Assembly: GCF_009601705.1 (NCBI RefSeq)
Contig: NZ_CP045687.1
Location: forward strand, 1,400,001-1,464,000
DNA: 64,000 bases
Reading direction: 5' to 3'
DNA from: Sulfolobus sp. E5-1-F
Lineage (GTDB): Archaea > Thermoproteota > Thermoprotei_A > Sulfolobales > Sulfolobaceae
This document shows positions 4,002 to 55,640 of the stretch, in pieces (the stretch's first letter is position 1; the number at the start of each line of letters is the position of its first letter). A program made the position numbers and the translations under genes. A model generated the notes under the pieces. It did not search any database and had not been told where the DNA came from. It saw only the letters and a program-made list of their open reading frames with translations.

Positions 4002-5232
4002 GAGAGAGTGTCCCAAACGCAAATAATTCAATAAATCTATGTACAAGTTTATAGATAATTATTCAAAATACAAGATAAACTGCTGAGAAATTCTGAATTT
4101 TCTCTTGAAGCAAAAGGTGGAGTAATACTTAAAGGGAACCGAGAGGGTGTAATACTGATTCCCATGAGCAAACAGGAAAGGATACTATACCCCACCGGTT
4201 CCCAAAGAATACTTATCGGCAAAGCATAAAACTCTTGTGAAAATGAACTACGTACTAACCACGTTCACTTCTCTGGTCTCTCCGACCTCTACGTACTGAG
4301 AGCATTAATAGTATGGACATGCTCCTACAGGGACGTATGGTGCTACTACCATACCGATATCGTAGTCAGATGGTTCCTAGGAGAACCAAAATCAGAAATC
4401 CATAGGAGAGCCAAGAGGCTCAGGATGGAGATAAAGGACGTGTTCCAGAAGTACGTAAAGGAATTGGAGACAAGAATGAACATGCTGAACAATTACCTAC
4501 CGAGCAGCGCACTATACGGTAGAGTAGGGAAGCTCTGGGCCGTAGACTCCTTCCTCATTGAAGTCCCCTTCAAGACTAACAAGGAGACTTTTAAGAAGAA
4601 ATTCGAACTTGAATTAAGGAGGAGGAACTACAAGCAAGCAGCTAAACTGCTTTACCATTACTTAAATAGTAAGGTGAGGTTCAAGGGAGAATTCGCTAAG
4701 AAGAGGAACTTCGGCTTCAAGGTATTCACTCTCATGTCACCAACAATGATCGTTCACGAGATTCAAGTGGAAATGGCTAACTTCCCCGACAACAAGGTCG
4801 GCTTCTCTGTCAGCGGTTACAAGGTGGTGGATAGGGGGTTTCTAGGCAAATCGTCAACTTGGTTGATCGGTTTTCCAAGTTTCAGAAGGTACGTGGAGTT
4901 TTTCGGGATCTTCTTGAGGAGGTATTGGAGACCCTACGCGACAAACCGGGAGATGAACTCTTCGTTTACGTAATAGCGTTGATCTACAACGCCATGATCT
5001 ACACGTCTGTATTGTCACGAGTTCCAGAGAGTTAGGACGTTGAGAAACGAGAGTAGTGTAGGCTATGTTTGAAATTCTGTTTTTCTCCACAACCTATTAT
5101 TTTCTATTACAATATAGGATTAATCTCTTGCTGTATTGAAAGATGTAATTGTATTTAATGCTTTATTTTATATAATATTATATTTCTCCCCTTCAAGCTT
5201 TATTGAATTATTTGCAATCGGGACACTCTCTC
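4002..5232. mobile_element. ISC1234-like insertion sequence (IS5-type), degraded
   Basis: The ends are 34-bp inverted repeats at 4002-4035 and 5199-5232, differing only in a few central bases; the outermost bases are GAGAGAGTGTCCC. Total length is 1231 bp, close to the roughly 1.23 kb of ISC1234. The single transposase gene inside is broken in several places. I find no convincing direct target duplication. The right end abuts another transposase remnant, so this element probably inserted into, or recombined with, that older one. Confidence 0.82.
4039..5035 (+). pseudogene. ISC1234-like transposase, multiply broken
   Basis: The gene can be followed from MYKFIDNYSKYKI (4039) through a -1 break near 4090 and a stop at 4227. 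A long intact part follows (frame of 4425-4840) with WAVDSFLIEVPF, which carries a likely catalytic Asp, and GYKVVDRGF. A second -1 break lies in the G-run near 4835. The tail then reads VDRFSKFQKVRGVFRDLLEEV and on to SRVPES at 5035. The pieces together match a full IS5-type transposase of about 330 residues. At least two frameshifts and a nonsense codon make it inactive. Confidence 0.78.
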
Positions 5233-5903: not shown

Positions 5904-6878
5904 TTATTCTTGTACCAATTGTCCATCATTATACTTTCTGTATTTAATTATTTCAAATCTAACTTCTTGGCCTACATCATAAAATTCTTGAGATAGGATA
6001 GTTATATTATTATTTTTGAAATTACATATTAAATATCTTGACTCTCCCGAAGCTTCTACTGATTCTACTGTACAAGATAGATTACCTTTTCCTACTTCTA
6101 CCCATTCTGGCCTAAACCCTATTTCTTGTACTTTTTCTTCCATTAAGTCTCCTGGTAAGAAATTCATTGGAAACTCGCCTACGAATTGCGCTACCCATTT
6201 TGTTTTTGGATATTCGTACAGTGTTTTAGGATCACTAACTTGTTCAAATTTGCCTTTATGAAGTACAGCAATTCTATCTGCTAGACTTAAGGCTTCTTTT
6301 TGATCGTGAGTTACGTAAATGAACGTACCTTTCAATTCTTTTTGTATTCTTTTCAATTCTCCCCTAGCTATTGTTCTTACTCTAGCATCTAGATTACTCA
6401 ATGGTTCATCCAATAGGAAATAGTTTGGATTTCTTACAATTGCCCTAGCCAGTGCGACCCTTTGTTGTTGCCCTCCACTGATTTGTGTTACTTTTTTATC
6501 TAATATTTCTGTTATGCCTAAAAGTTTCGCCACTTTTTCTACTCTTTCCATTATTTCTTCTTTTTTGATTCCCCTCATCTTGAGTGGAAACGCTATATTA
6601 TCTCTTACTGACATGTTTGGATATAGTGCGTAGTTTTGAAATACCATAGCAACGTTTCTCTTCTCTGGAGGTTTATCCGTAATGTCTACGCCATCTACTA
6701 AAATTTTTCCCTTATCTGATTTTTCAATTCCAGCTAGGATTTTCAATAATGTTGATTTCCCTTCTCCACTTGGTCCTAGTATTACAAAAAACTCTCCAGT
6801 CTCTATCTTCTCGGTTATGCCATTAATTACAATGTTTTTACCATATTTCTTTACAATATCTACTAATTCTACAGTCAT
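5904..6878 (-). CDS. Sugar ABC transporter, ATP-binding subunit (MalK/GlcV-like)
   Basis: This 324-residue CUT1-type ATPase drives sugar uptake from the cytoplasmic face. It shows Walker A GPSGEGKST (residues 35-43), the Q-loop Gln81, the signature SGGQQ (134-138), Walker B YFLLDEP (153-159) and the H-loop THDQKEAL. A C-terminal OB-type regulatory domain follows (about 235-324), slightly shorter than in GlcV or MalK. The start overlaps the end of the upstream permease gene by 4 bp. It is the last gene of a four-gene operon with two permeases and a binding protein; the sugar is not readable from the sequence. Confidence 0.92.
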   Translation of the reverse strand: MTVELVDIVKKYGKNIVINGITEKIETGEFFVILGPSGEGKSTLLKILAGIEKSDKGKILVDGVDITDKPPEKRNVAMVFQNYALYPNMSVRDNIAFPLKMRGIKKEEIMERVEKVAKLLGITEILDKKVTQISGGQQQRVALARAIVRNPNYFLLDEPLSNLDARVRTIARGELKRIQKELKGTFIYVTHDQKEALSLADRIAVLHKGKFEQVSDPKTLYEYPKTKWVAQFVGEFPMNFLPGDLMEEKVQEIGFRPEWVEVGKGNLSCTVESVEASGESRYLICNFKNNNITILSQEFYDVGQEVRFEIIKYRKYNDGQLVQE

Positions 6879-7678
6879 CCTTTTATCCCTCCCGCTAGAT
6901 ATTCTCCTCTTAGATATTTTTGCAATGCGAAAGTTAAAATTATTACAGGAATTGTAAATATTAGCGAAAACGCTATCCCTGCTAATAGGTTTCCTCTGGT
7001 TACATCTTGATATATTGTTACTGGAAGTGTAGAGTGATAAGGGATTAATAGGATTGCATAAGTGAACTCATCCCATGAGAACATCCATGATATTAAGAAT
7101 GCTGCCGCTATACCGGGTGCTGCTAGTGGCAAGAGAACCGAAAATAACCTATTAAATAAATTTGCGCCATCAACTCTAGCTTGATGTTCAAGGTCAATAG
7201 GTATTGACGAGAATGTGCCTTGCAAGATGAACGTAGCTAATGGTAGTGTTATTAGTGTCTGAGCTAGGGCTAGACCTATTACGGATTCAAAAAGGTGAAG
7301 TTTAAGAAAATCAACTACTATTGGGATGCCTATTACTATTGCTGGCATCATATTGGTAACTAGTAAAAGGATAATTATGGAATATGATATGGCTCTTGGT
7401 AGTCTACTTAAACCATATCCCGCTGGAATAGCTAATGCTATGGTAATGATTCCAACTAATGTTGCTGTTTCCAGACTTTTTATGAACGGATCAATGAATG
7501 CTGTACCTTGTAATGCTGTTATTAGGTTATTTAGTGTTAGTGATACCGGTAACAGTGAGGGAAATTTGGCTAAGACAGTATATTTCGGAGAATTAAATGC
7601 GAGTAGTACTAAAATGTAAAGTGGAAATAGAAAGTAAATTCCTACTATAATTGCACCTAAATATGTCCACCATCTCAT
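6875..7678 (-). CDS. Sugar ABC transporter permease (MalG-like)
   Basis: This 267-residue membrane protein has six predicted hydrophobic segments, beginning near residue 7. The coupling-helix EAA motif region is visible as HQARVDGANLFNRLFSVLLPLAAPG, shown here only in part by its Asp-Gly core and the following LPLAAPG. This places it in the MalG-type half of CUT1 importers. It forms the channel with the neighbouring permease and receives sugar from the binding protein outside the membrane. It is the third gene in the operon, overlapping the ATPase gene by 4 bp and separated by one base from the first permease. Confidence 0.9.
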   Translation of the reverse strand: MRWWTYLGAIIVGIYFLFPLYILVLLAFNSPKYTVLAKFPSLLPVSLTLNNLITALQGTAFIDPFIKSLETATLVGIITIALAIPAGYGLSRLPRAISYSIIILLLVTNMMPAIVIGIPIVVDFLKLHLFESVIGLALAQTLITLPLATFILQGTFSSIPIDLEHQARVDGANLFNRLFSVLLPLAAPGIAAAFLISWMFSWDEFTYAILLIPYHSTLPVTIYQDVTRGNLLAGIAFSLIFTIPVIILTFALQKYLRGEYLAGGIKG

Positions 7679-11159: not shown

Positions 11160-13417
<2,258 letters not shown>

Positions 13418-53894: not shown

Positions 53895-54980
53895 ATGTAC
53901 AATATGCAAAGTAATTTAAGAATCGATACAATAAGTGAGATATTTAAGGAGTTACAGAAAGAGAAGTACCACCTCATTGGCACTCATAGTGCATATAAGA
54001 AGTGTCATTGGACTCATTCTGCTCTTGTAGCTAATAGATCTTGCTATAAGGGCAAATTCTATGGAATTGAGAGCCATAGATGCGTACAAATGACTCCAAC
54101 TGCAGCGTGGTGCTGGTTTAGATGTGTACATTGTTGGAGATTAGAACCAGAGGATGTTGGGCTAGAGTGGGACGATACGAAAATGCCTGCATACGACGAT
54201 CCGGAATATATTGTAGAGAGGAGTATAGAAGAACATAAGAAAGCCGTTTCTGGATATCTAGGAAGAAATGATGTTAACATTCAAAAAGTAAAAGATGCGA
54301 TGAGACCAGCGCATGTCGCAATAAGTTTGACAGGAGAACCTACACTTTATGAGAAACTTGGTGATCTTATAAAGGAGTATCATAAAAGAGGTATGACAAC
54401 CTTTCTTGTAACTAGTGGTGTAAGACCAGATATATTAGCAAGTTTAGAAGAAGAACCTACTCAGTTATTTGTATCTCTACAGGCTCCGAATGAGATGAAA
54501 CATAAAATGATTAATAGACCAGTAGTTGCTAACTCTTGGCAACTAGTTATGAAGACTTTAGAGATCTTACCAAGTTTTAGTTCACCAACTGTAATAAGAT
54601 TTACAATGATAAAGGGATACAATATGAGTGAGCAAGATGCAAGAGAATTTGCGAAGTTAATGGAAATTGCAATGCCTACATATATAGAGATTAAGGCTTA
54701 CATGCACGTTGGACCATCAACCTATAGGTTAAGTAGAGATGCTATGCCAAAACATAAGGAGATAAGAGAATTTGCGAAAATCCTAGCACAATATACTGGG
54801 TATAATATCTTATCAGAGCATGTACCCAGTAGGATAGTTCTCCTAAGTAAATTGGATAAGCCGATTAAGATTGGTAATGCGTGGAATGAAAAATGGGATT
54901 GGTCTACTATTGATATGGAAGATGATATGAGTGGAGAATATAAGGAAGCAGAACAAGGTTGTACAGAGGGATCAACTTGA
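53895..54980 (+). CDS. taw1: 4-demethylwyosine synthase TYW1
   Basis: TYW1 builds the tricyclic base of wyosine in tRNA-Phe from m1G37 and pyruvate with radical SAM chemistry. The 361-residue protein has [18 protein letters not shown] followed by VHCWR; the three cysteines of CWFRCVHC bind the SAM cluster and the earlier Cys residues the second cluster. Then follow SLTGEPTLY and [13 protein letters not shown]-like TTTTTTAATCC lies before the start. The stop TGA is in the same frame as the riboflavin kinase coding region that follows. Confidence 0.96.
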
Positions 54981-54984
54981 AAAG

Positions 54985-55640
54985 ATGAGTCAAACGCTTG
55001 TATATTAGCTAAAATTATAGCCTACTCAAAGGACAAGTCGTACGTAACACAATCAGAGCTAGCTAAATTACTTAATTTCTCACAGCAATCAATATCTCGT
55101 AAATTAAAGGAATTGGAAGATGATAAACTGATAGTAAGAATAATATCTAAAGAAGGAGAGATCATAAGATTAACAGAAGAGGGAGAAAGATTTTTGCGTT
55201 CATGTTTAAGTAACTTAAAAGATGCCATATTGTCGCTTCATAGTCTCGAAATAAAAGGAAATATTGTATCTGGACTTGGAGAAGGAAAAATATTTCTATC
55301 AATGGAGTACTACAAAACTCAAATAAACAAAATAATGGGATTTGATCCTTATCCAGGCACGCTAAATATTGTAATATACGACAAACTGTCTCTAGAGAAT
55401 AGATTACTCTTAGATTCATCACCTTCTTTAATTATTCCAGAATACAAGCAGAAGGATAGAGTATTAGGCGCAGTTAAATTATATCCTGCATCAATTAATA
55501 AATTAACACCAGCTGCAGTAGTCATTCCCTTAAGAACCACACATCCAAAGAGTGTAATAGAAATAATTTCCCCATTTCATCTCAGGGAAAAATTGAATTT
55601 GAAGGATGGCGATGAGGTAACAATAGAGGTTTATGTTTAA
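54985..55640 (+). CDS. ribK: CTP-dependent riboflavin kinase with HTH domain; -1 shift near start
   Basis: The protein would phosphorylate riboflavin to FMN using CTP. The frame from 55011 to 55640 encodes a winged helix ([20 protein letters not shown]) and the kinase domain ([48 protein letters not shown]). It has no ATG, GTG or TTG before 55113, which would remove the helix-turn-helix. ATG 54985 starts MSQTLVY and hits TAG; a -1 shift at TATTAGC continues LAKIIAYS into the domain. So a missing T, recoding, or reinitiation is needed. Total is about 218 residues. Confidence 0.85.

Follow-up and report, generated by a model that had tools for sequence, protein, structure and literature searches.

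How is a riboflavin kinase made from a reading frame that has no start codon? In the stretch of DNA analysed here (64,000 nucleotides, hereafter the window), the frame of RibK begins at the base right after the TGA that ends TYW1 (...ACT TGA, stop at 54978-54980) and in the same frame as TYW1. It holds no ATG, GTG or TTG before position 55113, where codon 45, a TTG, is the first NTG. That codon falls behind the recognition part (SQQ...SR) of the helix-turn-helix, and an ordinary downstream start would remove this N-terminal domain from the predicted protein. A sequence-only reading of the window had located the problem correctly and claimed that RibK lacks a usable in-frame start and needs something non-standard; the same situation in 18 genomes now bears this out. 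By our own estimate, it is very probable that some non-standard form of translation produces RibK. The features on which the argument turns are collected in Table 1.

Table 1. Features of the TYW1-RibK junction (window coordinates).
Feature	Position	Strand	Evidence or remark
TYW1 (4-demethylwyosine synthase), gene upstream of RibK	53895..54980	+	TIGR03972 1.7e-130, above cut-off; PF08608; PF04055; ORF
GAGG, Shine-Dalgarno-like, within TYW1 Glu-Gly codons	54966..54969	+	18/18 start-less genomes
Conserved element (T/C)TGAAAAG: proposed start TTG 54977-54979 and shift site AAAA 54980-54983	54977..54984	+	Invariance in 18 genomes
RibK main frame, 219 codons + stop	54981..55640	+	Proposed product M + 219 residues
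MSQTLVY frame, 7 codons + TAG; confined to this genus and an unlikely entry	54985..55008	+	7/7 in genus, 0/11 in start-less genomes of other genera
Winged helix-turn-helix, RibK N-terminal domain (limits approximate)	55002..55205	+	PF12802 6.4e-8; PRK14165 aligned from residue 12; 3cta/5trd aligned from residue 11
CTP-dependent riboflavin kinase domain, PF01982	55263..55631	+	E 1.9e-41, well above cut-off

The comparison covered 60 related genomes, including 31 Sulfolobaceae species genomes. The start-less RibK junction is present in 18 of these 31, spread over six genera: all seven genomes of the same genus and 11 genomes in five others (g4, g6, g7, g8 and g9 in our numbering). Since it occurs in 18 separate genomes, it is due neither to chance nor to error. 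The missing T that the sequence-only reading had entertained is refuted by this recurrence. The wider idea of a sequencing or assembly error, or of a pseudogene, is practically negligible, as RibK is also the genome's only PF01982 gene and is under purifying selection. In the remaining 13 Sulfolobaceae genomes RibK has an ordinary ATG, at the corresponding position or close to it. Comparison with relatives had been suggested as a check, an ordinary main-frame ATG in orthologues counting against a non-standard start; such ATGs do exist in these 13 genomes, but they belong to other genera, which mostly appear to have lost the start-less arrangement. In a tree of TYW1 and RibK the start-less genomes do not form one clade (AU p 0.0004). 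This agrees with a start-less ancestor from which some lineages reverted to ATG; the number of reversions is uncertain because some inner branches are weak. The junction of one genus, g3 (L016, L017 and L019), is one base shorter (GAGGAATGAAC TCT AAA GAA, with Lys-Glu in frame); the ATG used there lies three codons before the aligned lysine and the GAGG is one base from it. On sequence, this junction looks like a reversion through a 1-nt deletion. In another genus, g10, TYW1 and RibK are joined by a regular ATGA overlap.

The product encoded by the start-less frame resembles known enzymes along almost its whole length. The PRK14165 model (winged helix-turn-helix and riboflavin kinase) aligns its positions 13-218 of 224 to residues 12-218 of RibK, with the helix-turn-helix and the CTP-dependent kinase both found along the model, at a score of 186 bits that is under the model's 279-bit cut-off. 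The solved Thermoplasma riboflavin kinase 3cta aligns with residues 11-218 (E 1.8e-37). RibK is the sole PF01982 match in the whole 2.54 Mb source genome, which we judge to be Saccharolobus-like. RbkR-type proteins act as regulators of riboflavin genes by binding DNA. In the explanation that we favour, RibK is a normally folded, functional protein. Codons 2-34 have a pN/pS of 0.16, and the remainder of the gene has 0.11-0.14; because purifying selection there is the same as elsewhere in the gene, we conclude that these codons are translated. This bears on the simplest alternative, an ordinary start further down that would give a kinase without helix-turn-helix and leave the upstream part as a relic. 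NTG codons are available for it (such as TTG 55113), but no NTG column is conserved, the first NTG ranges from codon 12 to codon 105, and purifying selection acts in full on the N-terminal part, which makes such a start very improbable. Neither a conserved downstream start nor an in-frame near-cognate start was found at a usable place in the 18 genomes.

What the 18 start-less genomes do share is a short element at the junction, (T/C)TGAAAAG, present in every one of them, with C as first base (giving CUG) in one species. In codon alignments of these 18 genomes from six genera, TGAAAAG has undergone zero changes on the tree, and none of the 1,696 other 7-nt windows (629 in RibK and 1,067 in TYW1) has one change or fewer. 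The lysine at codon 1 of RibK is encoded by AAA in every one of the 18 genomes, while both AAA and AAG occur at each of the 11 further invariant lysine positions. Among the 218 third codon bases of RibK, only that of codon 1 never varies. Of the start-like codons in the three frames, YTG alone has a conserved position, no conserved start codon being found in the third frame of the 18 genomes, and it stands one base out of the RibK frame in all of them. The motif has been lost from the genera in which RibK has an ordinary ATG, and their site is variable (TTAA or TTGA in g5, AAG or AAA in g3). Taken together, the comparisons make a conserved, selected recoding or initiation element at the junction well supported. 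The element appears to act at this gene and not generally. The pattern GAGG-N4-11-YTGAAAAG has 10 matches genome-wide as compared with 14 for a reversed-pattern control, and was rejected as a general start signal; a long +1 frame follows only the match at RibK. The signal at the junction thus looks gene-specific.

Within this genus synonymous variation has a mean of 0.59 but drops to 0.12 in the first nine codons of RibK (5 of 569 windows are equally low) and to 0.19-0.23 in the last codons of TYW1. The low stretch (54945-55010) is broader than an 8-nt motif accounts for. A change at the level of mRNA, in which splicing, editing or transcript slippage would link an upstream start to the RibK frame, could explain the nucleotide conservation without ribosomal recoding, and low synonymous variation that spans the junction would agree with it. 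However, a search for conserved RNA structure or a splice motif at the junction gave zero consensus pairs, and the lack of conserved base pairing means that there is no bulge-helix-bulge. Polymerase slippage would have to occur on a run of only four As, which is short for this purpose. We regard an mRNA-level change as highly doubtful.

Upstream of the element lies a GAGG whose distance to YTG is 7 nt in 16 of the 18 genomes and 10 nt in the other two, both of g8. The predicted duplex with GAUCACCUCA, the assumed anti-Shine-Dalgarno sequence, has energies of -7.3 to -12.5 kcal/mol across the 18 genomes; a value of -7 is attained in about 7% of the other windows of TYW1. The TYW1 glutamate codon within GAGG is GAG in all 18, and as the core sits in conserved codons its conservation may in part be protein-level. 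RF2-type +1 shifts have a tight Shine-Dalgarno spacing, and the position of GAGG fits initiation and not that spacing. The 16 genomes with 7-nt spacing have a 4-nt TTGA overlap of the TYW1 stop and the proposed start, with the GAGG inside TYW1. In Sulfolobus-type crenarchaea, Shine-Dalgarno motifs are reported mainly from overlapping gene pairs (PMC6728339). The two g8 genomes (L028 and L029) have no overlap, YTG beginning 5 nt past the TYW1 stop. They contain two in-frame TGAs (TGA AGC TGA AAA and TGA AAT TGA AAA); TYW1 stops at the earlier, two codons ahead of the conserved TGAAAAG, and the second TGA keeps the full motif. Since TYW1 stops upstream and the motif is nevertheless kept, the motif serves something other than ending TYW1.

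We propose that RibK is translated from the UUG or CUG at 54977 by way of an immediate +1 step. The GAGG inside the end of TYW1 would place a ribosome, probably one that has just finished TYW1 and re-initiates, on this codon; the codon and the TYW1 stop overlap in UUGA, as start and stop do in the AUGA commonly found between coupled genes. Such a start is one frame off RibK and its second codon would be the AAA within AAAA. Re-pairing from AAA to AAA one base forward is possible within the invariant AAAA, and the lysine tRNA, or the initiation complex, would make this step (UUG AAA A GAU). GAU GAG and what follows would then be read in the RibK frame, giving MKDESNAC... with intact helix-turn-helix and kinase; this predicted N-terminus aligns with the Lys-Glu start region of g3. 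Ribosomes that fail to shift would end after three to eight codons, having made MKR, MKRL, MKS or MKSPNYL, and the mini-ORF that YTG opens in its own frame does close within eight codons in every start-less genome. The +1 reading is favoured because it accounts jointly for the T or C, the TG, the four As and the spacing. It is the best explanation we can offer, and our confidence in it is middling. The sequence-only reading had looked to a -1 step, and it overlooked the probable signal, TTG 54977 followed by AAAA and a shift of +1.

Some observations sit less easily with this proposal, among them the position of the GAGG and the lack of conserved RNA structure, both described above. Only TTGA and CTGA are found at the overlap in the 18 genomes. 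The absence of ATGA and GTGA counts against YUG as the start, for both should be tolerated too. In addition, the codon that follows AAA in the A site is AGA, AGC or AGU, and as this is neither a stop nor clearly rare, there is no obvious pause.

The -1 shift put forward previously would start at ATG 54985 and slip at TATTAGC. It is correct that this ATG gives MSQTLVY and then TAG, and that a step back by one base rejoins the RibK frame. The ATG and the short frame are kept throughout this genus, where synonymous variation over the first nine codons is low, as noted above. Outside it the programmed -1 shift fails: the ATG is missing in all 11 start-less genomes of the other five genera, GUA UAU UAG C is not slippery, and the tRNA-Tyr paired with UAU would need to slip onto AUA. 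A conserved start together with a slippery X_XXY_YYZ heptamer in the zero frame was looked for and not found, and no supporting structure is predicted. We consider this shift barely credible.

A more substantial alternative is that some of the ribosomes insert an amino acid at the UGA of TYW1 and carry on, yielding a TYW1-RibK fusion, with UGAAAAG as the readthrough context. All 18 start-less genomes have RibK in frame with TYW1, as does none of the 12 genomes with a start whose frames could be compared; the stop is always UGA and never UAA or UAG, and its 3' context AAAG is invariant. On the other side, 16 genomes have a single stop but both g8 genomes have two TGAs, so that there two stops would have to be read, and the motif, complete at the second, is more than a leaky TYW1 stop. 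Readthrough also leaves the pyrimidine before TGA and the constant GAGG spacing without explanation, and the archaeal cases are established for selenocysteine and pyrrolysine only (PMC8211752). The fusion suggested by the sequence-only reading thus survives as a minor possibility, second to the +1 step and disfavoured by the earlier TGA of g8 and by the conserved Shine-Dalgarno-like spacing.

Initiation might instead occur directly in the RibK frame after the stop, guided by the Shine-Dalgarno-like sequence and using a codon outside AUG, GUG and UUG (for example UGA or AAA), so that no frameshift is called for. The conservation of that sequence and of UGA AAA at a fixed distance would suit such a start, and lysine as first residue agrees with the homologous N-terminus. 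Neither UGA nor AAA is near-cognate to the initiator anticodon, however, no in-frame near-cognate codon is conserved at the N-terminus in the 18 genomes, and one base upstream there is a UUG with perfect spacing. A direct non-AUG start therefore seems rather improbable.

The absence of a start codon from the beginning of an open frame is not in itself a distinguishing mark. Since 3 of the 56 long frames in the 64-kb window have a later first NTG than RibK, start-less openings alone are not unique within it; at least two of these three have an ordinary ATG or a domain beyond the gap. Start-less leaders of 65 and 63 codons precede the frames at 4230-4973 (plus strand) and 5907-7067 (minus strand), both of which look ordinary from their sequence: the first has ATG 4425, and in the second an ABC-transporter domain begins after the first NTG. 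At 12628-13035 on the minus strand, a 136-codon open frame lacks any NTG up to codon 49 and matches nothing in Pfam.

We infer the entry at UUG, the +1 step on AAAA and any regulatory use of shift efficiency alike from comparison of sequences. We tentatively suggest that a programmed +1 shift at the second codon after UUG or CUG has been conserved since the ancestor of the family and sets the output of this putative regulator-kinase. If true, RibK would be the first cellular archaeal gene with +1 recoding and would define a class of shifts that form part of initiation. The recoding site would be invariant in six genera; as its gene is single-copy, presumably essential and found in genetically tractable models, archaeal recoding would become directly testable. 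Were the shift to respond to flavins, lysine or ribosome state, FMN supply would be controlled at this point. In the affected species, automatic annotation probably cuts RibK short or puts its start in the wrong place. The wyosine-type modification of tRNA-Phe has been linked to frameshifting at U-rich sites (PMC5009743). TYW1, the upstream gene, makes a modification of this type; the RibK site is a lysine AAA, and a link is speculative.

A search of the open-licence literature gave no match for recoding of RibK or for its start sites in Sulfolobales, although earlier notice in other literature is possible, and none for a +1 frameshift in a cellular archaeal gene. Archaeal recoding as reviewed comprises readthrough for selenocysteine and pyrrolysine and one demonstrated -1 programmed frameshift, in fucA1 (PMC8211752). 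A likely frameshift is described for the magnesium chelatase of methanogens, and +1 shifting in archaea has been predicted only for the halovirus HSTV-2 (PMC5009743). The single reported case, fucA1 of Saccharolobus solfataricus, shifts by -1 on A-AAA-AAT in mid-gene (PMC8211752). RibK would share with it recoding in the same genus; the RibK shift, unlike that of fucA1, would be of opposite direction, at the start of the gene and conserved across the family.

Other features of the junction have ordinary counterparts. In domain order and length RibK matches the archaeal winged helix-turn-helix riboflavin kinases (PRK14165, Thermoplasma 3cta and 5trd, RbkR type), although the relatives outside Sulfolobaceae that were compared (for example L048 and L050) have an ordinary ATG near the junction. 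The TTGA overlap with a Shine-Dalgarno-like sequence inside the upstream gene resembles ATGA/TGATG coupling, and the overlap in g10 joins the very same genes. The start proposed for RibK is, however, one base off frame, so coupling alone cannot give RibK.

The RibK junction combines features found at +1 sites: (i) a translated frame without its own start; (ii) a site that changes more slowly than synonymous sites; (iii) scope for tRNA re-pairing. Its closest likeness is to the +1 shifts of bacterial prfB (RF2) and eukaryotic antizyme, in which a tRNA re-pairs one base forward on a conserved short site; RF2 also has a Shine-Dalgarno-like sequence upstream, as does the RibK junction. RibK would differ from both in three ways: the A site holds neither a stop nor a clearly rare codon, the shift would occur at the second codon after the start, and a full-length upstream product would be lacking.
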